From Candidatus Kapaibacterium sp. (lineage in GTDB: Bacteria > Bacteroidota > Ignavibacteria > Kapaibacteriales > UBA2268), in the NCBI GenBank assembly GCA_026418625.1, contig JAOABA010000005.1, forward strand, positions 1 to 51,214: a DNA stretch of 51,214 nt, written 5' to 3'. The position numbers and the translations under genes were made by a program. Position 1 is the stretch's first letter. The number at the start of each line of letters is the position of its first letter. This document shows, piece after piece, positions 10,268-37,801 of the stretch. Below the pieces are notes generated by a model. It saw only the letters and a program-made list of their open reading frames with translations. It was not told the origin of the DNA and searched no databases.

Positions 10268-11050
10268 ATGATTAAGGAAATTTATACGGCTGCGATGGGA
10301 ATGCTGCCCCAACAAACAAAGTTGGAGGTAACGGCTAATAATATTGCTAATGCTTCTACCCCCGGTTTCAAACGTGAATCTGTCTTTGAACGAAACCTAA
10401 TTGATGCTCGTGCTAATTTCTATAATGTTCAGGGCGATGCCGAACAAAATGACCCGCCAATTGGTTCATATACTGATTTCGCACAAGGTGGTTTTACTAA
10501 GACTGATAATCCTCTTGATATTGCTATTGATAATAAAAACGGATTCTTTGTTCTTCAGGACGAGCAAGGTCACGAGTATTTAACAAAATCTGGAAAATTT
10601 CGAATCACAACAGAAGGTCTAGTAGTTACTTCTGATGATAAAATGCTAATGGGAACAAACGGACCTATTAATCTTCAAAATGCTTTAACCAATTCAAAAG
10701 GAGATTATGAAGAGTCCAATAAAATTAACCTTGTAATCACTCAAAATGGCGAAATACAGCTAAATCAAGCTTCGTTGGGAAATCTTAGAATAGTAGAAGT
10801 AAATAATCTCCAATCTTTAGAAAGAGTTTCTAATTCCTGTTTTATTACAACTGATGGAACTGATTTTCGGAACCTCGATAAGGAAGAAATATCAATTAAA
10901 CAAGGTTGGATTGAAGGTTCAAATGTTAACGTTATCAAAGAAATGGTTGAAATGATTGAGGTCCAGCGTATGTTCGAACTTGGTAGCAAGGTTATTCACA
11001 CAAATAACGAAACTTTGGAAATTTCACTAAGAATGTCAAAATTCTATTAA
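10268..11050 (+). CDS. flgF: flagellar basal-body rod protein FlgF
   Basis: A 260-residue axial protein of the rod. The N-terminal Flg_bb_rod motif reads LEVTANNIANASTPGFKRES (about residues 21-40). The central hook-domain segment is NPLDIAIDNKNGFFVL (about 79-94), and the C-terminal helix VIKEMVEMIEVQRMFELGSKVIHTNNE matches the family coiled coil. Adjacent flgG has the same architecture. The more divergent, first-placed paralogue is called FlgF, as in the usual flgF-flgG order. It has no cleavable signal, since export is by the flagellar type III apparatus. Confidence 0.88.
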   Translation: MIKEIYTAAMGMLPQQTKLEVTANNIANASTPGFKRESVFERNLIDARANFYNVQGDAEQNDPPIGSYTDFAQGGFTKTDNPLDIAIDNKNGFFVLQDEQGHEYLTKSGKFRITTEGLVVTSDDKMLMGTNGPINLQNALTNSKGDYEESNKINLVITQNGEIQLNQASLGNLRIVEVNNLQSLERVSNSCFITTDGTDFRNLDKEEISIKQGWIEGSNVNVIKEMVEMIEVQRMFELGSKVIHTNNETLEISLRMSKFY

Positions 11051-11072
11051 AATAAGCAATGAAAGGTCAATT

Positions 11073-11861
11073 ATGGATAAAACATTAAGAACGGCTTCAA
11101 CAGGACTAACTGCTCAACAAAGGTATGTTGAAATAATTGCCAACAACATATCAAACGTTAATACGAGCGGTTTTAAAAAAGTCAGACCTGAATTTCAAGA
11201 TTTACTTTATGAAACATTGATGCCGGCAGGTAACACTCAATATTCTCAATCGCCTCCATTAAATGAAGTCCAAATTGGCTCGGGAACTGAACTAACAGCT
11301 ACAACAAAGATTTTTTCTCAGGGTGACATCAAGCAAACTAACAATCCCCTTGACATTGCAATCAATGGTGATGGTTTCTTTGTTGTAAGAAAGCCAGATA
11401 ATAGTTATGCATTCACTCGTGATGGTTCGTTTCAGCTTGATAGTAAAGGACAGATAGTTACTTCTCAAGGTTACATTCTCGAGCCCGGATTCAATATTCC
11501 TCAGGATGCAGTTGGTATTTCAATCACAAGAGATGGCATCATAAACGCAATTGTTGGTACCAATAATGAAGAGCAACCACTTGGTCAAATTGAATTAGCC
11601 CGATTTGTTAATCCTGCAGGTCTTAAATCCATTGGGGACAACCTTTATGTCGAAACCCCTGCTTCAGGTAGAATGACATTGGAAACACCCGGTTTCAATA
11701 ACACAGGGGAATTAATTCAATCCCATATTGAATCATCCAATGTTGATATTGTAGAAGAGATGATTAATATGATTATTGCCCAACGTTCTTATGAACTAAA
11801 TTCTAAATCAGTCAGAACCGCTGACGAAATTCTTGCTACTGCTGTTAATTTAAGAAGGTGA
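11073..11861 (+). CDS. flgG: flagellar distal rod protein FlgG
   Basis: A 262-residue distal rod protein, exactly the usual FlgG size. It has N-terminal STGLTAQQRYVEIIANNISN with NVNTSGFKK (residues 9-33), the FlgG-type segment ELTATTKIFSQGDIKQTNNP (about 73-92), DIAINGDGFFVV, and C-terminal ESSNVDIVEEMINMIIAQRS before EL. The rod built from it passes through the P and L rings encoded directly downstream. It is 22 bases after flgF and 4 bases before flgA. Confidence 0.95.
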   Translation: MDKTLRTASTGLTAQQRYVEIIANNISNVNTSGFKKVRPEFQDLLYETLMPAGNTQYSQSPPLNEVQIGSGTELTATTKIFSQGDIKQTNNPLDIAINGDGFFVVRKPDNSYAFTRDGSFQLDSKGQIVTSQGYILEPGFNIPQDAVGISITRDGIINAIVGTNNEEQPLGQIELARFVNPAGLKSIGDNLYVETPASGRMTLETPGFNNTGELIQSHIESSNVDIVEEMINMIIAQRSYELNSKSVRTADEILATAVNLRR

Positions 11862-11865
11862 TAAT

Positions 11866-12588
11866 ATGATGAGAAATTTTAAATCAATATTATTTAATTT
11901 AATTTTTGCTTGTATTCTTTCATTAAATACTACTGATTTATTTTCCCGTTCATTTTTCTCAGGTGATAACATTAAAACTGCCTGTATTAACTATGTTTAT
12001 TCTATTATCAACGATGAGATTGAAATCAAGGTAACAGATAAAATTCCCAATCAAAATTTTGAAGAAGATAAAGTTTACGCCAGATTTCAAGGTGATAGGA
12101 ATTCTCTAAAGGGAAACACACATATTATCGTTGAATTTTTAAAAGATGAAAAAATTCTCAAAAGAATTACTGTTCCAGTTAATATAAAAGTTTACAAAAA
12201 ACTACCCGTTGCTGTTAGAAATATTTTTTCTGGCAAACAGATAAAAAATGGGGATTTCGAATTAAAAAAGATTGATGCAACAAATTTAAATTCTGAGGAT
12301 TTAGTTGGCGAAGATGAGATTATCGGTGCAATAGCCAAAAGAAACATCACAAAAGACAATGTCATCCTGAAATCATTCATCCAATCAGGAAACCAAATTA
12401 ATAGAGGCCAAAAAGTTGAGATTAATGTTATATCCGGTGCAGTAAGAATAAGAACTACCGGAACAGCTCTGCAAGATGGTTTAGCCGGTTCAGAAATACG
12501 AGTCAGAAAAGATGACTCAAATGTTATTCTGAATGGTGTTGTTTCGGAAGAAGGGACTGTAGTAATCAATTTATCTGAAAATAAATAA
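11866..12588 (+). CDS. flgA: flagellar P-ring assembly chaperone FlgA
   Basis: Periplasmic chaperone for P-ring polymerisation. The 240-residue protein has a hydrophobic signal segment (residues 7-22). The C-terminal SAF-type domain carries typical FlgA signatures: RNITKDNVILKSF, NRGQKVEINVISGAVRI and TGTALQDGLAGSEIRVR. ATG 11866 is followed at once by a second ATG (11869), so the exact start is uncertain by one codon. It lies between flgG and flgH, as in many flagellar operons. Confidence 0.92.
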   Translation: MMRNFKSILFNLIFACILSLNTTDLFSRSFFSGDNIKTACINYVYSIINDEIEIKVTDKIPNQNFEEDKVYARFQGDRNSLKGNTHIIVEFLKDEKILKRITVPVNIKVYKKLPVAVRNIFSGKQIKNGDFELKKIDATNLNSEDLVGEDEIIGAIAKRNITKDNVILKSFIQSGNQINRGQKVEINVISGAVRIRTTGTALQDGLAGSEIRVRKDDSNVILNGVVSEEGTVVINLSENK

Positions 12589-32583: not shown

Positions 32584-33465
32584 ATGAATGACAAAGAAAA
32601 TCCAATAGGTCTTTTTGATTCTGGTATTGGTGGTCTTAGCGTTTTGAGACAATTCATCAAGTTTCTGCCAAATGAAAATTATATTTACCTTGGTGATACA
32701 GCGAGAGTTCCTTATGGGAACAAATCAGTTGCAACTGTAAAGAGATATGCTTCAGAATGCACCGAATTTCTTCTGTCAAAAAATGTTAAATTAATTGTTG
32801 TAGCTTGTAATACAGTCAGTTCAGTTGCTATTGATATTGTCAGTTCAAAATCAAATGTTCCAGTTATAGGAATGATTATTCCAGCAGCTATAGCTTCAAT
32901 TAGGGCAACTCGAAATGGAAAAATTGGAGTAATAGGAACAAGAGCCACAATAGAAAGCAATGCCTATTCTAAAACAATTTATTCTATCACAAAAAACTAT
33001 ACTTCGGAAACTAATGAATCACAAAATTCACCTGAAGCGATAAATATCAATAATAAATTAATAACAGTATTTAACAAGGCTTGTCCTCTTTTTGTTCCAT
33101 TAGTTGAAGAAGGTTTAGTTAATCATAATGCAACAAGACTTATAGCTCAGGAATATCTTGAACCATTGAAATCCGAAAATATAGATACTCTTGTTCTTGG
33201 TTGCACCCACTATCCTCTATTAGCTCAGCTCATTTCGGAATTAATGCCAAATGTAACATTAATTGATTCAGGAGAACATTCCGCCGTTGCTGCTATAAGA
33301 TTATTAGGTGAAAAGAACTTACTTAATCCTAAATTTGACACAGTTATAAAAATACCATCAGTTCAATTTTATGTTACTGATATCCCCTCAACTTTTCACG
33401 AAATAGCTAAAATGTTTCTTAACTTTGAAATTTCTACCCCAGAAATTGTAAATTTTGGGAATTGA
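32584..33465 (+). CDS. murI: glutamate racemase MurI
   Basis: Supplies D-glutamate for peptidoglycan. The 293-residue protein has IGLFDSGIGGLSVL at 8-21, YLGDTARVPYG (35-45), catalytic C75 in VACNTVSS and catalytic C207 in LVLGCTHYPLL. A polar insert at about 135-158 (rich in Asn, Ser and Thr) makes it slightly longer than typical members of 260-270 residues. The stop TGA lies directly before the ruvA ATG. It heads a plus-strand trio, murI-ruvA-hisA-like. Confidence 0.95.
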   Translation: MNDKENPIGLFDSGIGGLSVLRQFIKFLPNENYIYLGDTARVPYGNKSVATVKRYASECTEFLLSKNVKLIVVACNTVSSVAIDIVSSKSNVPVIGMIIPAAIASIRATRNGKIGVIGTRATIESNAYSKTIYSITKNYTSETNESQNSPEAININNKLITVFNKACPLFVPLVEEGLVNHNATRLIAQEYLEPLKSENIDTLVLGCTHYPLLAQLISELMPNVTLIDSGEHSAVAAIRLLGEKNLLNPKFDTVIKIPSVQFYVTDIPSTFHEIAKMFLNFEISTPEIVNFGN

Positions 33466-33466
33466 T

Positions 33467-34066
33467 ATGATTGAAAGACTTAAAGGAAAAATATTACAGA
33501 AAAAATCCACTGAAATAATTTTAGATTGTAATGGCGTTGGCTTTTCCGCTTTTATTTCAGTTAATTCATCGGAAACATTACCAAACGAAGGTGAAGAAGC
33601 AACTTTATATACAATCTTAATCAATCGTGAAGATTCTTTTGAACTTTATGGTTTCAGCGAAATTTTTGAAAGGGATGTGTTCAAACTTTTGATTTCTATC
33701 AGTGGTATTGGTCCAAAATCTGCAATGTCAATTCTTTCATCGATGTCGGTGCCTGAATTACAGGAAAAAATAATATTGGGGGACTCGATTTCCTTGCAAA
33801 AACTACCGGGAATTGGCAAAAAAACTGCAGAAAGAATTATATTGGAGCTTAAGGACAGAATCCACAAAATTTCAATTCCTGCAGTTTTTGAATTGAAAAA
33901 AGAAAAAAATCTAATTGCAAGAGAAGCTGTTGCTGCACTCGTTACTCTCGGCTATTCAACAGCCTTAGCTGAAAAATTGATAAATAAAGCTCTTTCCGAT
34001 TTTCCAGATAATAATTTTACTGCAGAGCAACTTATTAGAAAAGCCCTAAAATTAGCTTCTTCCTAA
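33467..34066 (+). CDS. ruvA: Holliday junction branch-migration protein RuvA
   Basis: Binds four-way DNA junctions and loads RuvB. ATG 33467 is chosen because it gives the canonical start MIERLKGKIL; an in-frame TTG 12 bases upstream adds four residues of no family likeness. The 199-residue protein has the OB-fold N-terminal domain (1-62), helix-hairpin-helix motifs GIGPKSAMSIL (80-90) and LPGIGKKTAERI (113-124), and a C-terminal RuvB-binding domain (AREAVAALVTLGYSTALAEK). One base separates it from murI; hisA-like follows after 10 bases. Confidence 0.95.
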   Translation: MIERLKGKILQKKSTEIILDCNGVGFSAFISVNSSETLPNEGEEATLYTILINREDSFELYGFSEIFERDVFKLLISISGIGPKSAMSILSSMSVPELQEKIILGDSISLQKLPGIGKKTAERIILELKDRIHKISIPAVFELKKEKNLIAREAVAALVTLGYSTALAEKLINKALSDFPDNNFTAEQLIRKALKLASS

Positions 34067-34076
34067 GGTTTTAATT

Positions 34077-34865
34077 ATGTTAGTTATACCCGAAATAAAA
34101 ATTCGTAATGGAGAAAGCCTATTTACTATTCAAGGTGAAGAAGGAACCGAAGAATTTTATGAAAATCTTAAAAAAAATCCCTTTCAACTTTGTCAATTGC
34201 TAAGAACTGAAAATGCAAAAACAATAATAGTAACAGATTTAGATGGAATAGAACAAGAACAGGTGATTAATTTTGATGTTATGTGTATGTTAACATCAAG
34301 CACCGAAATACCTATTCAAGTTCTTTCTGGTTTTGGTTCTTATATTGAATGTGAATATCTACTTAGTTTTGGCATTAGAATGATTTATCTTACTAATTTA
34401 CCTTTACTTCAACCTGAAACTGTCATTAAGCTAATCAAAAAATACTCTTACGCAAAAATTGGATTTTATATTAATGAATCGGAAGGTTTTATTAATTTTC
34501 ATAACACCAAAAAGGTTATGCCAGTAAATGAATATTTGGAATTTATTATGAGCCTTGGAGGAAAAAGATTTTACTATGAAAATGAAGTCTGGGCAAAAGA
34601 TAAATCTTTAGTCGATTATAACTATTTAATTGATTTAGCTCGGAATACCGACATAAAATTTAATGTTGCCAATTCAGTTGATACAGTTGAGGATTTATGG
34701 AAAATAGCAAAATACGATACAAAAATTATTGGAAGTGCTATTATTTGTGAGCCATTATTTTTTAATCATTTTGCCTGTCAAAAAATCTGGCGAAAAGCCG
34801 AAGCTGACTCAATCAAAAACAAGAATATTTTTAATCTTCAAACAAACTATAATAAAGAGTCATAA
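34077..34865 (+). CDS. HisA-like TIM-barrel protein lacking catalytic aspartates
   Basis: A 262-residue protein with the overall pattern of phosphoribosylformimino-AICAR-P isomerase (HisA). The HisA-like order is LVIPEIKIRNG at the start, VTDLDG (52-57), EIPIQVLSGFGSYIECEYLL (77-96) with FGIRMIYL after it, AKIGFYINESEGF (126-138) and GSAIICEPLF (219-228). The catalytic positions are lost. HisA has IPAID with a catalytic Asp near residue 8, here PEIK with K8. The second catalytic Asp of the GIDxRDG segment is replaced within GFYINESEG. The second phosphate loop (SGGV) reads NVANSV. It is therefore probably not an isomerase but a repurposed paralogue. The context is murI-ruvA, not histidine genes. 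Confidence 0.7.
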   Translation: MLVIPEIKIRNGESLFTIQGEEGTEEFYENLKKNPFQLCQLLRTENAKTIIVTDLDGIEQEQVINFDVMCMLTSSTEIPIQVLSGFGSYIECEYLLSFGIRMIYLTNLPLLQPETVIKLIKKYSYAKIGFYINESEGFINFHNTKKVMPVNEYLEFIMSLGGKRFYYENEVWAKDKSLVDYNYLIDLARNTDIKFNVANSVDTVEDLWKIAKYDTKIIGSAIICEPLFFNHFACQKIWRKAEADSIKNKNIFNLQTNYNKES

Positions 34866-35085: not shown

Positions 35086-37527
35086 TCATTTTTGGAAGTA
35101 TATTGTCAATCCAAAAAACATATCCTGATGTTCTTCATAATATTCTTTAGTAAATTCCTTCCCATCACCTTCCCGATAGTAATCAATTACCTTACTTTTA
35201 CTAAAAAATGATAAAACCAAGGATCCATAACCATTTACAGGGAAATTTTTCATTGTTCCTTTTAATTTGAATATATTACCAGTTGTATCGCATCTATAAT
35301 TCTCCATCTTCTTGAATGCATTTGTAGTATCAAAAGTGGTTGCAAATCCTTTGTTCATTACTTCAAATTCATATTCCGATTTATATAATCCATAATACTC
35401 ACCATAAGTTTTTGTAACCTTTCCACTGGTATATTTTATCGATATAGTTAAATCTACATTTATTTCAGTTGGAAATTTACAATTATATGTGTAACTTGGG
35501 AAATTCACGTAACTTATTGTATTTATCAATCTTAGTTCGTTAGCAGTTACAGTTCCTTTAATACTTATTTCAAAAGTAGGTTGCTTATCTGCAAAATACC
35601 ATCCGAGAAATTTAAATTTATAGGTAGTATCAATTATACCAGCTCCAATGATAGCATAAGCAGTGGCAACTGCAAAAAGCTGATTTTTACTATCGTCATA
35701 AAGTTCGAGAATAATTGGGAATATCCCATCATCTTTATATGTATGCTTTACTTCAGTATTATTTTTTACTTTTACTATAGGAGTTTTATCTCCAAAGTTC
35801 CATTCATAACGAGCATTAATAGGTGGATTGTTAATAATTGCTTTCCAAGAATATTCCTTATTCTTTAAGCCATTCATTTTTGCGGGTTCAATTCTCAGTT
35901 CTGAAATCTTTATCCATTTATAATCAATCCAATTTTGGTAGCCGTTAGTCGCTAAGTTCCAAACCCATATTCCTAAATCTGAATTTTTATCTTCTTCATC
36001 AAGTGTATAATCTAATTCGAGCTTTCCTTTTTCTGATCTGGCTAATTCTACATCATTTTTATATAAAGAAATATATGGGTCATTAATACTAAAATTTGAG
36101 CTACCAATTTTGCATTTGATCTGCAGTTGTTTATTCGATTCATACATAATAATATCAGCTAATTCAATTTCCTTACCCTCACTATCTTTTGTAAAGTATT
36201 CGACTTTAGGAAAAACATTTTTGCCAATATTATCGGATAGAGTCTCATCCCAGTAATACCCTATGCTTTCCCAATTAAACAAGGCAGATTTTCCAAAAAA
36301 TGCAAAATTATTATACTGAATACTTGAAGGATCATTAGCATTATCACCTGATATATATGGTTTAAATCTTCCATTTTCAAATTCAATTAAACGTGTTTTT
36401 GATCCCGGAAAATTAGGATCAGCTACATTTATTTTACCATTTGCATAATCAACCGCATACGCTATAATAGCATGAGCTTTAATTTCAGATGATGATGTAG
36501 AAATAATTGTATACAAAGGTTCTCTTGTAACATATATTTGTGCAGCGGCTGCTTTAATTCCCTCTCTTGTATAGGCTTCATAAAAATTCGGTTCATCAGC
36601 ATAAATTGTTCTTACCGAAGAGTAAAAATCATTAAAATATTTTATCCATTGCTTTTCGTTAGTTGATTGAACCATTGAGACAAATTTGATTCCTTTTGGA
36701 TTATCTTGCCAGAATGGGTCAGGTTTTTTCTCTTTGTCAAATTTGTCAAAATAATGATGAATTCCCTTGTTATTTATCTTTTTTTGTGTGGTAAAATACC
36801 AAAGTGCCGATAAACTATGCCCAGAGCAATTTCCTTGTGGTGTTATTATTGAACCCCAGTTTGTAAATTCCCAATCATCAATTCCGGGCTCAAAACCAGT
36901 ACTCATCAAACCGGATTTTTGTAAATCTTCCTCTTTTACTTCTGATAAGACTATGTGGGAGTATAATTCATCGACCAATAACTCTGGTTGGTTAGTTTTA
37001 CCAAATTTTGAATACTGCATTCCATTGCTCATAAAATGTCTTGTTGCTATAACTACTTTCCCACCCGAATATCGAATTACTGGAATAGGTTCTAAAGTGC
37101 CAGTTTTATCATTGTAGAAGAATGCCGCAGCTACAGCTTTATCAGAAATAACAGCAGGTATCTCAAGAGTCATTATCCGCTCAGAGTAACCACCACCATT
37201 AGCTATCTTGATTAAAGGAGAAATTGGCTTGAAGCGATCCCCAAAATTATGACTTTCGATTTTTGCAAAAGATACATTAAAAGTCTTTGTCTGGTCGTAA
37301 CTACCCTCAGGAATGTTTATTTTCATACCCTTGATTTCTTTAGCTTCATCACCAAAGGTAATTATGCCCCCATTAGTGGCAATTGTTTTTGATGGTAAAT
37401 CCTGACGTTCACCTGTTTTGATGTTATTGGTTGAGTCTTTAGGATTATTTACTTCTGGACAGGAGGTTAAAAAAAGAGATAAAAAAGAACATAATACTAA
37501 GAAAAAAATTTGATCTCTCATTTTCAT
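35086..37527 (-). CDS. large lipoprotein with papain-like and PKD domains
   Basis: An 813-residue lipoprotein. The start is placed at MKMRDQ (37527), since AAAGAAAG precedes it; an in-frame codon at 37557 lacks a ribosome site. The lipobox ends LTSC with C23. Parts in order are a ZU5-like beta domain (about 45-160, GGIITFGDEAKEI, NIPEGSYDQTKTF); a papain-like region with QGNCSGHSLSALWYF (Q231, C234), AHAIIAYAVDY (H352) and ADPNFPG (D370/N372); a PKD domain (about 560-630, YEWNFGDKTPIV, HTYKDDGIFPI); and a C-terminal beta-rich region. The Gln-Cys-His-Asp/Asn order matches C1/C39-type cysteine peptidases. It is probably a surface-exposed protease-like lipoprotein. Substrate unknown. Confidence 0.7.
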   Translation of the reverse strand: MKMRDQIFFLVLCSFLSLFLTSCPEVNNPKDSTNNIKTGERQDLPSKTIATNGGIITFGDEAKEIKGMKINIPEGSYDQTKTFNVSFAKIESHNFGDRFKPISPLIKIANGGGYSERIMTLEIPAVISDKAVAAAFFYNDKTGTLEPIPVIRYSGGKVVIATRHFMSNGMQYSKFGKTNQPELLVDELYSHIVLSEVKEEDLQKSGLMSTGFEPGIDDWEFTNWGSIITPQGNCSGHSLSALWYFTTQKKINNKGIHHYFDKFDKEKKPDPFWQDNPKGIKFVSMVQSTNEKQWIKYFNDFYSSVRTIYADEPNFYEAYTREGIKAAAAQIYVTREPLYTIISTSSSEIKAHAIIAYAVDYANGKINVADPNFPGSKTRLIEFENGRFKPYISGDNANDPSSIQYNNFAFFGKSALFNWESIGYYWDETLSDNIGKNVFPKVEYFTKDSEGKEIELADIIMYESNKQLQIKCKIGSSNFSINDPYISLYKNDVELARSEKGKLELDYTLDEEDKNSDLGIWVWNLATNGYQNWIDYKWIKISELRIEPAKMNGLKNKEYSWKAIINNPPINARYEWNFGDKTPIVKVKNNTEVKHTYKDDGIFPIILELYDDSKNQLFAVATAYAIIGAGIIDTTYKFKFLGWYFADKQPTFEISIKGTVTANELRLINTISYVNFPSYTYNCKFPTEINVDLTISIKYTSGKVTKTYGEYYGLYKSEYEFEVMNKGFATTFDTTNAFKKMENYRCDTTGNIFKLKGTMKNFPVNGYGSLVLSFFSKSKVIDYYREGDGKEFTKEYYEEHQDMFFGLTIYFQK

Positions 37528-37801
37528 TTCTTTCTTTATAATATTATTATATAACAATTAAATCAAACTTAGCTAATATTAATTTATAATAAAAATTTTT
37601 TTTTGAAAAATTTCAACTAATATATAGAACTAATAATATTGTTAATTAAAATTTTCGGTCTTATCTTTAAAAATTAAAATTCTTCTTGTTTTATTCTGTA
37701 ACTTAAACTGTTCCATTTGTCTTAATCAACCTTTTAAGAAATTGATTTACAATATTCAATCCAAATTACCGATTTATTAGATTTTTATATCCATTTATCT
37801 A

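Follow-up and report, generated by a model that had tools for sequence, protein, structure and literature searches.

The gene at positions 34077 to 34865 (plus strand) of the window, the whole 51,214-nucleotide stretch of Candidatus Kapaibacterium sp. DNA that we analyzed, encodes a HisA-derived protein of 262 amino acids that lacks the HisA catalytic residues and is conserved; these are our strongest claims. Overall, we think it probable that the protein belongs to a widespread family of HisA-derived pseudoenzymes kept for a noncatalytic role, and that this role is probably partner binding. The lineage, which we call FPCQ-type after its strict C-terminal motif N-x-F-P-C-Q-x-I-W-R-x-x-E, includes both apparently working HisA copies and what we term orphans, namely copies that have lost at least one catalytic aspartate in a genome that either lacks the histidine pathway or has another hisA; the window protein and its genome show both features. 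The open reading frame (ORF) starts with ATG, has no internal stops and is also open in the window's congener. We considered and rejected frameshift or pseudogene status for it, given the intact ORF and low dN/dS values among its relatives.

A HisA-like barrel had been proposed from the sequence alone in a first-pass annotation, and structure prediction with structural comparison agreed. The AlphaFold2 model (69 sequences) has a mean pLDDT of 93.4 and a pTM of 0.89, and a Foldseek search with it ranked HisA and PriA structures first (top match 4tx9, E = 1.8e-13); the VIA Z was 24.6 to both PriA (1vzw) and HisA (5abt), with HisF tied within 1. From the model and its PDB matches, the predicted fold is the (beta-alpha)8 barrel of the HisA/HisF group, and it is by sequence that we assign it to the HisA side. 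HisF, the HisH-docking cyclase, has the same fold and structural matches as close as those of HisA, but the profile of the window protein is that of HisA (59 versus 17 bits). The protein matches Pfam His_biosynth over residues 3 to 225 (59 bits; cut-off, 23.6) and falls far below the equivalog cut-off of the NCBIfam HisA profile TIGR00007 (59.3 bits versus 228.95); against the HisF, WbuZ, and AglZ profiles it scores 16.8 to 19.2 bits, with cut-offs of 294.55 to 310. Five orphan relatives score 144 to 226 bits with TIGR00007, also below its cut-off, two of them by 3 and 12 bits (226 and 216.7), and the working relative L223 scores 295.6 bits.

We assigned residue equivalences from an alignment with L223, itself aligned with solved PriA/HisA chains. 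By this alignment, K8 (codon 34098 to 34100) replaces the strand-1 catalytic Asp and N133 (34473 to 34475), within YINES, replaces the strand-5 Asp, both as read from the sequence at first pass; A173-K174 (34593 to 34598) lie opposite the loop-6 Asp-Gly, which provides the general acid, although the alignment of this loop is uncertain. HisA has two phosphate sites, at strands 3/4 and 7/8. In the window protein both are lost: at the first, L83-S84-G85 (34323 to 34331) replace the strand-3 GGG and T106-N107 (34392 to 34397) the strand-4 G-S/T (GGG to LSG, GS to TN), and at the second, N199-S200 (34671 to 34676) replace the strand-7 GG and C224-E225 (34746 to 34751) the strand-8 G-K/R (GG to NS, GK to CE). 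The earlier statement that one phosphate loop had been rewritten underestimated the extent of the loss, which covers both phosphate sites and, if the loop alignment is correct, the loop-6 Asp at A173. The final phosphate strand, supposed to be kept, has lost its key residues (IIGKAL in the working relative, IICEPL here); the DLDG segment is retained, as claimed, with both D54 and D56 present. The catalytic Asp is D176 in Salmonella HisA and D175 in Mycobacterium tuberculosis PriA, according to PMC9088769, which mentions the HisA variants D7N, D11N, and D176A; by its title, structure 5a5w is the D7N/D176A variant of HisA with its substrate, ProFAR. Judging by the T-D-I-x-[RK]-D-G motif that the proteins share, we would match D172 of L223 with Salmonella D176. 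Taken together, these replacements suggest that the window protein has no ProFAR isomerase activity.

The particular replacements seen in the window protein are not what its orthologs conserve. Among 50 Kapabacteriales rows, position 8 is D in 26, E in 13, K in only 5, and another residue in 6; the strand-5 position is R in 27, N in 6, D in 1, and another residue in 16. It had been recognized from the start that orthologs retaining the aspartates would point to a decayed copy: Asp8 does persist in 26 of the 50 rows and distant members keep all three aspartates in genomes with HisG, but the strand-5 Asp survives in a single Kapabacteriales row. The phosphate sites are also unevenly kept within the order. 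Sampled rows of the other Kapabacteriales families lack the strand 3/4 site only, and those of families f2, f3, f6, f8, f9, and f10 retain the strand-7 GG and strand-8 G-K/R that make up a monophosphate site; the core Kapabacteriales orphan L064 is one that retains this second site, and the window species lacks both sites.

The host genome (3.3 Mb in 58 contigs; 96% complete) contains no HisA/HisF-type protein other than the window protein by PF00977 search, so the search for a normal hisA came up empty; the first-pass annotation had placed the gene away from histidine genes. The two weaker PF00977 matches, tried as candidates for a hidden hisA or hisF, are Dus (302 bits) and IMPDH (558 bits). 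Family searches, which for histidine covered HisA/HisF, HisB, and HisG, gave no HisB or HisG match in this genome; TrpC and TrpF gave none either, on which ground we rejected a PriA/TrpF role there. Of 35 Kapabacteriales genomes tested, 33 lack TrpC, and the two that have it (G029 and G037) do not carry the HisA-like gene. TrpF matches occur in 7 of the 35, and five carriers of the HisA-like gene (G007, G010, G011, G030, and G038) have a weak TrpF match (64 to 85 bits) and no TrpC. Two Kapabacteriales genomes without HisG encode strong PF00977 matches, L037 (G013:C109:1749-2432; 230 bits) and L038 (G021:C35:8447-9130; 224 bits), which are perhaps WbuZ/AglZ-type proteins. That ProFAR isomerization or TrpF chemistry persists within an unrecognized pathway is suggested by family membership and nothing further; with the triad and both phosphate sites lost, and with no match to HisG, HisB, HisF, TrpC, or TrpF in the genome, we regard this as extremely improbable.

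The gene follows ruvA (33455 to 34066, plus strand) after a gap of 10 bases; ruvA is in turn preceded by a gene at 32584 to 33465 (plus strand) that we, like the first-pass annotation, take by recognition to be murI. A scan of viral sequences with murI gave no match. The name ruvA comes from a Pfam match in L092, a member of the same blastp cluster as the ruvA of the window. The murI-ruvA order noted at first pass is found in the window, and it recurs in the congener (L005). A ruvA match lies within 1,000 bases upstream of the HisA-like gene in 31 of 39 Kapabacteriales genomes (family f9, 0 of 5), and the 38 non-Kapabacteriales loci examined from a motif scan have none there. Depending on the family, the neighbors are ruvA, genes for cNMP-binding and universal stress (Usp) proteins, PorZ, PfkB, or DUF6263; because they vary in this way, the context indicates no single pathway. 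We looked for one conserved operon across the whole lineage and found none, the gene contexts being family specific.

Several of these contexts deserve description. In 10 Ignavibacteria-type loci (L200, L203, L205, L206, and L235 to L240), the orphan is followed on the same strand by genes of about 180 and 160 codons, which in the two loci scanned (L200 and L205) encode a cNMP-binding-domain protein and a universal stress protein, respectively; genes of matching size follow the orphan in families f12, f17, f58, and f21, and they could form a signaling operon with it. Locus L222 has only the gene of about 160 codons beside its orphan. A PorZ-type cluster gene lies directly upstream of the orphan in 18 of 21 loci that hold the cluster (the Ignavibacteria-type loci L106 to L140, and L212); it is of the type IX secretion kind with an N-terminal beta-propeller, as judged from Pfam runs on L121 and L212. 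In L207, from a genome without HisG, a gene for urocanase, an enzyme of histidine breakdown, lies just downstream of the orphan. Elsewhere in the window, positions 10268 to 12585 hold genes for flagellar rod (FlgE/F/G-type) and P-ring chaperone (FlgA) proteins, and positions 35086 to 37557 (minus strand) encode an 823-amino-acid protein for which Pfam gave no match at E 1e-5; by eye, its N terminus resembles a lipoprotein signal.

With the window protein as the query, we found a HisA-like gene in 30 of 40 related genomes, its own included. HisB and HisG are each present in three of the 40 (G029, G032, and G037), and only G032 combines the pathway with a HisA-like gene; its other hisA, with hisF, is on a different contig. 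A second Kapabacteriales genome, G140, also has both pathway and HisA-like gene. Scanning named genomes with the pattern N-x-F-[PA]-C-Q-x-I-W-R gave 174 relatives, of which we kept 80; record titles among them include Kapaibacterium, Ignavibacteria, Melioribacter, Chlorobiota, and plain Bacteroidetes. These 80 loci carry the motif by construction; 29 of them entered the tree, and none entered the residue counts given below. Before the alignments we dropped two partial genes (L032 and L033), and before the tree twelve near-duplicate rows, two of them ordinary HisA proteins. In the resulting tree of 120 rows, FPCQ-type HisA (109 rows) separates from ordinary HisA (11 rows) with an SH-aLRT of 99; the window protein falls within a Kapabacteriales clade of 50 rows (SH-aLRT, 96), itself inside a clade of 52 rows that adds family f16 (SH-aLRT, 100), although the method was a quick one with no bootstrap and long branches make the fine detail in the window's family unsafe. 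By its sequence, the window gene is thus placed in a widespread FPCQ lineage and is not a one-off decayed copy.

Three arrangements recur across this lineage. The FPCQ gene accompanies HisG in genomes of families f14 and f15 and of lineages further away in the phylum, and in several cases it lies beside hisF; in many genomes of f11, f12, f13, and other families, an ordinary hisA sits beside hisF and the FPCQ orphan lies elsewhere; and many genomes have the orphan only, with no HisG. We compared the state of the triad with the presence of HisG in 80 genomes, one row each, having first grouped "working" rows by family and tested HisG status separately. The triad is intact in 18 genomes, all of which have HisG, and broken (at least one Asp lost) in 62, of which 49 lack HisG and 13 have it. 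By coordinates, each of those 13 also carries, at another site, two adjacent PF00977 genes, which we read as hisA and hisF. No second HisA is present in 17 of the 18 intact-triad genomes, and 16 of the 18 have exactly two PF00977 matches; G114 has a third, of HisF2/WbuZ type, and G122, a Bacteroidota-type genome, is the one in which an intact FPCQ copy accompanies another HisA, a eukaryote-type protein (L254; TIGR02129, 361.8 bits; cut-off, 229.3). We then examined 18 more genomes as a check set; none of them has HisG, and all 18 have lost at least one triad Asp. The fewest triad-state changes on the tree is three, so the 80-genome counts are not independent and the independent events are few; HisG absence also depends on genome completeness, which is mostly 90 to 100% but drops to 76% in G013.

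Purifying selection acts on the orphans. Among 25 close pairs listed, the dN/dS ratio is 0.012 to 0.119 in 23, and the other two have saturated dS; just three of the pairs are from Kapabacteriales (0.026, 0.067, and 0.119), and dS exceeds 1 in many pairs overall. The window protein and its congener counterpart are 72% identical, with a dN of 0.19 and saturated dS; for the same pair, dN is 0.14 for ruvA and 0.135 for murI. The suggestion that the gene is a functionless relic on its way out would fit the fast evolution of the window's family, seen as long branches, and the absence of a HisA-like gene from 10 of the 40 close relatives, which does indicate that the gene is dispensable. However, the frame is open in both the window and its congener, dN/dS is low wherever it could be measured, the gene occurs in seven families sampled from the order, and the signature described below has zero entropy, and we give a decaying relic almost no credence. 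The proposal of a conserved pseudoenzyme of the HisA/HisF fold accordingly holds up on its fold, its occurrence in 30 of 40 genomes, its low dN/dS where measurable, and the generality of catalytic loss among orphans; conservation does not lie in the K8 and NES replacements but in a set of 13 residues elsewhere in the protein.

These residues are R43, E45, N46, R164, L207, S220, N230, F232, C234, Q235, W238, R239, and E242, and none of them is a catalytic or phosphate position. Every one of the 57 orphan rows and of the 18 check-set rows has all 13, which makes 75 of 75 rows, none of them fetched by motif, even though relatives share only 24 to 37% identity with the window protein. For the 57 rows we chose among the members (28 from the 40-genome search and 29 from other relatives); rows from L203 to L242 were picked by a C-terminal regular expression, which all matches there other than HisF-type ones passed. 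The check set was fetched after the residue set had been fixed, and no C-terminal filter was applied to it. In the window, R43-x-E45-N46 (34203 to 34214) spans the end of helix 1 and the loop to strand 2, R164 (34566 to 34568) starts strand 6, S220 (34734 to 34736) lies near the start of strand 8, and N230 to E242 (34764 to 34802) form a helix-8 signature. Ten of the residues (R43, E45, N46, N230, F232, C234, Q235, W238, R239, and E242) make up a signature, 10 of 10 in the window protein, whose entropy is 0.00 in both orphan groups, 0.69 in working FPCQ copies, and 2.01 in ordinary HisA.

Eight of the 13 residues (R43, N46, R164, L207, S220, F232, C234, and W238) are already invariant in the 18 working rows as well, and a large part of the set may therefore be needed for folding. 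The other five vary there: position 45 is Q in 12 rows, and N230, Q235, R239, and E242 are present in 10, 16, 6, and 13 rows, respectively. Positions 45 and 239 covary in the working copies, with E45 accompanied by R239 in 6 of 6 and Q45 by a residue other than R in 12 of 12, which suggests an internal salt bridge between E45 and R239. The signature might then be nothing but a clamp that stabilizes the fold across helices 1 and 8, its invariance being structural and any role weak or species specific, a view to which the eight shared residues and the salt bridge-like pair lend some weight. Yet working relatives evidently fold with Q45 and with C, H, or Y at 239, and positions 45, 230, 235, 239, and 242 are fixed in 75 of 75 orphans despite such low overall identity; stability alone seems unlikely to fix so many positions, and we consider a clamp alone rather improbable.

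The distribution of conservation around the barrel is turned over between working copies and orphans. With top and bottom regions set from the secondary structure of the model, mean entropy at the top and bottom is 0.99 and 1.13 in working FPCQ HisA and 1.29 and 1.93 in ordinary HisA; in Ignavibacteria-type orphans it is 1.65 and 1.39, and in Kapabacteriales 2.26 and 1.63 (helices, 2.01). Orphans are thus more conserved at the bottom of the barrel than at the top, and working copies are the opposite; by the region rule, N230 and F232 of the invariant set belong to the top rim and not to the bottom. The bottom, where orphans are the more conserved, is also where HisF docks HisH. This pattern also bears on whether the barrel now catalyzes a different small-molecule reaction, using new catalytic residues in place of the triad. 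For such an enzyme one can cite the monophosphate site of families f2, f3, f6, f8, f9, and f10; D54 (kept in 51 of the 57 orphan rows) and D56 (kept in 50), both at the end of strand 2, together with N230 at the top rim, kept in all 57; and the precedents of PriA/SubTrpF shifts after gene loss (PMC5404923) and AdeK (PMC13055916). However, the top face, where chemistry takes place in this fold, is the least conserved part of the Kapabacteriales proteins, N230 is the only invariant polar residue on that face in the 57 rows, and in the window species the second phosphate site is missing as well. We judge a new enzyme unlikely; the idea suits the Kapabacteriales families with a retained second phosphate site, in which a ligand is possible, better than it suits the window species.

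The noncatalytic role that we favor could have arisen as follows. The gene would descend from the lineage's own FPCQ-type HisA, which apparently still makes histidine in relatives. Loss of the histidine pathway in Kapabacteriales would have freed this copy from ProFAR isomerization, and in several Ignavibacteria-type families the FPCQ copy may likewise have been freed by a different hisA beside hisF. The triad presumably decayed first and the phosphate sites afterwards, since other families have lost the strand 3/4 site alone and the window species has lost both. The protein would have been retained because it already held, or gained, a second, noncatalytic job, most likely that of binding or scaffolding another protein through the surface of helix 1, helix 8, and the barrel bottom; the invariant set would then be a binding surface, for which a partner protein should exist. 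Members of families f14 and f15, which belong to the same class, have HisG and keep the triad, already carry a nearly full signature (E45, N230, R239, and E242 in 5 of 5; Q235 in 3 of 5). This is the basis for a more specific and tentative proposal, to which we give slightly less than an even chance: moonlighting came first, in that HisA in the common ancestor of the Ignavibacteria/Kapabacteria class gained a protein-binding function on its helix 1/helix 8 face while still catalytic. This function would have outlived catalysis, with the barrel persisting as a pseudoenzyme, wherever HisA was no longer needed for histidine because the pathway was lost or another hisA was present.

The closest known system is FPCQ-type HisA itself, the Chlorobi/Rhodothermota-type ProFAR isomerase, which shares lineage, fold, and C-terminal motif with the window protein; it keeps the three aspartates and both phosphate sites and occurs in genomes with HisG, and the orphans differ from it in lacking an intact triad. 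HisA of Chlorobi/Rhodothermota is described as having an extra C-terminal stretch that is missing from HisA of Ignavibacterium album and Melioribacter roseus, for whose his operon horizontal transfer was proposed (PMC8305728). We infer that this stretch is the FPCQ stretch; a displaced FPCQ copy would then be the original hisA of species with an imported operon. Extra copies of hisF and hisH are reported for M. roseus, and a second hisA is not mentioned in the parts of that paper covered (PMC8305728). PriA, SubHisA2, and SubTrpF of Actinomycetaceae are likewise HisA-family proteins kept, with altered active sites, after loss of his or trp genes (PMC5404923). They remain ProFAR or PRA isomerases, however, in contrast to the window protein, which lacks the catalytic and phosphate residues and for which we found no marker of either pathway; a tryptophan pathway without trpF, the setting of PriA and SubTrpF, is not what the host genome presents, since it gave neither a TrpC nor a TrpF match. 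AdeK, a PriA homolog from a nucleoside antibiotic cluster, was also recruited outside histidine synthesis; it differs in that its HisA activity is still detectable and its gene belongs to a biosynthetic cluster (PMC13055916). Among the best 10 to 15 matches listed in our searches of the open-licence PubMed Central literature, none describes the FPCQ orphan family.

HisA, a textbook housekeeping enzyme, also serves as a model for how enzymes evolve. In the comparison cases above, as far as those sources were covered, change in the HisA family after gene loss ends in other isomerases; here, the active site is lost and other residues are strictly kept. Automated annotation is also at stake, because some orphans score only just under the HisA cut-off. 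Working and orphan copies in the 80 genomes and 18 further ones offer a natural comparison for asking why cells keep a dead enzyme, with 13 residues named. If the moonlighting-first proposal is true, a moonlighting function came before the loss of an enzyme, and then replaced that enzyme, across many families of a phylum.
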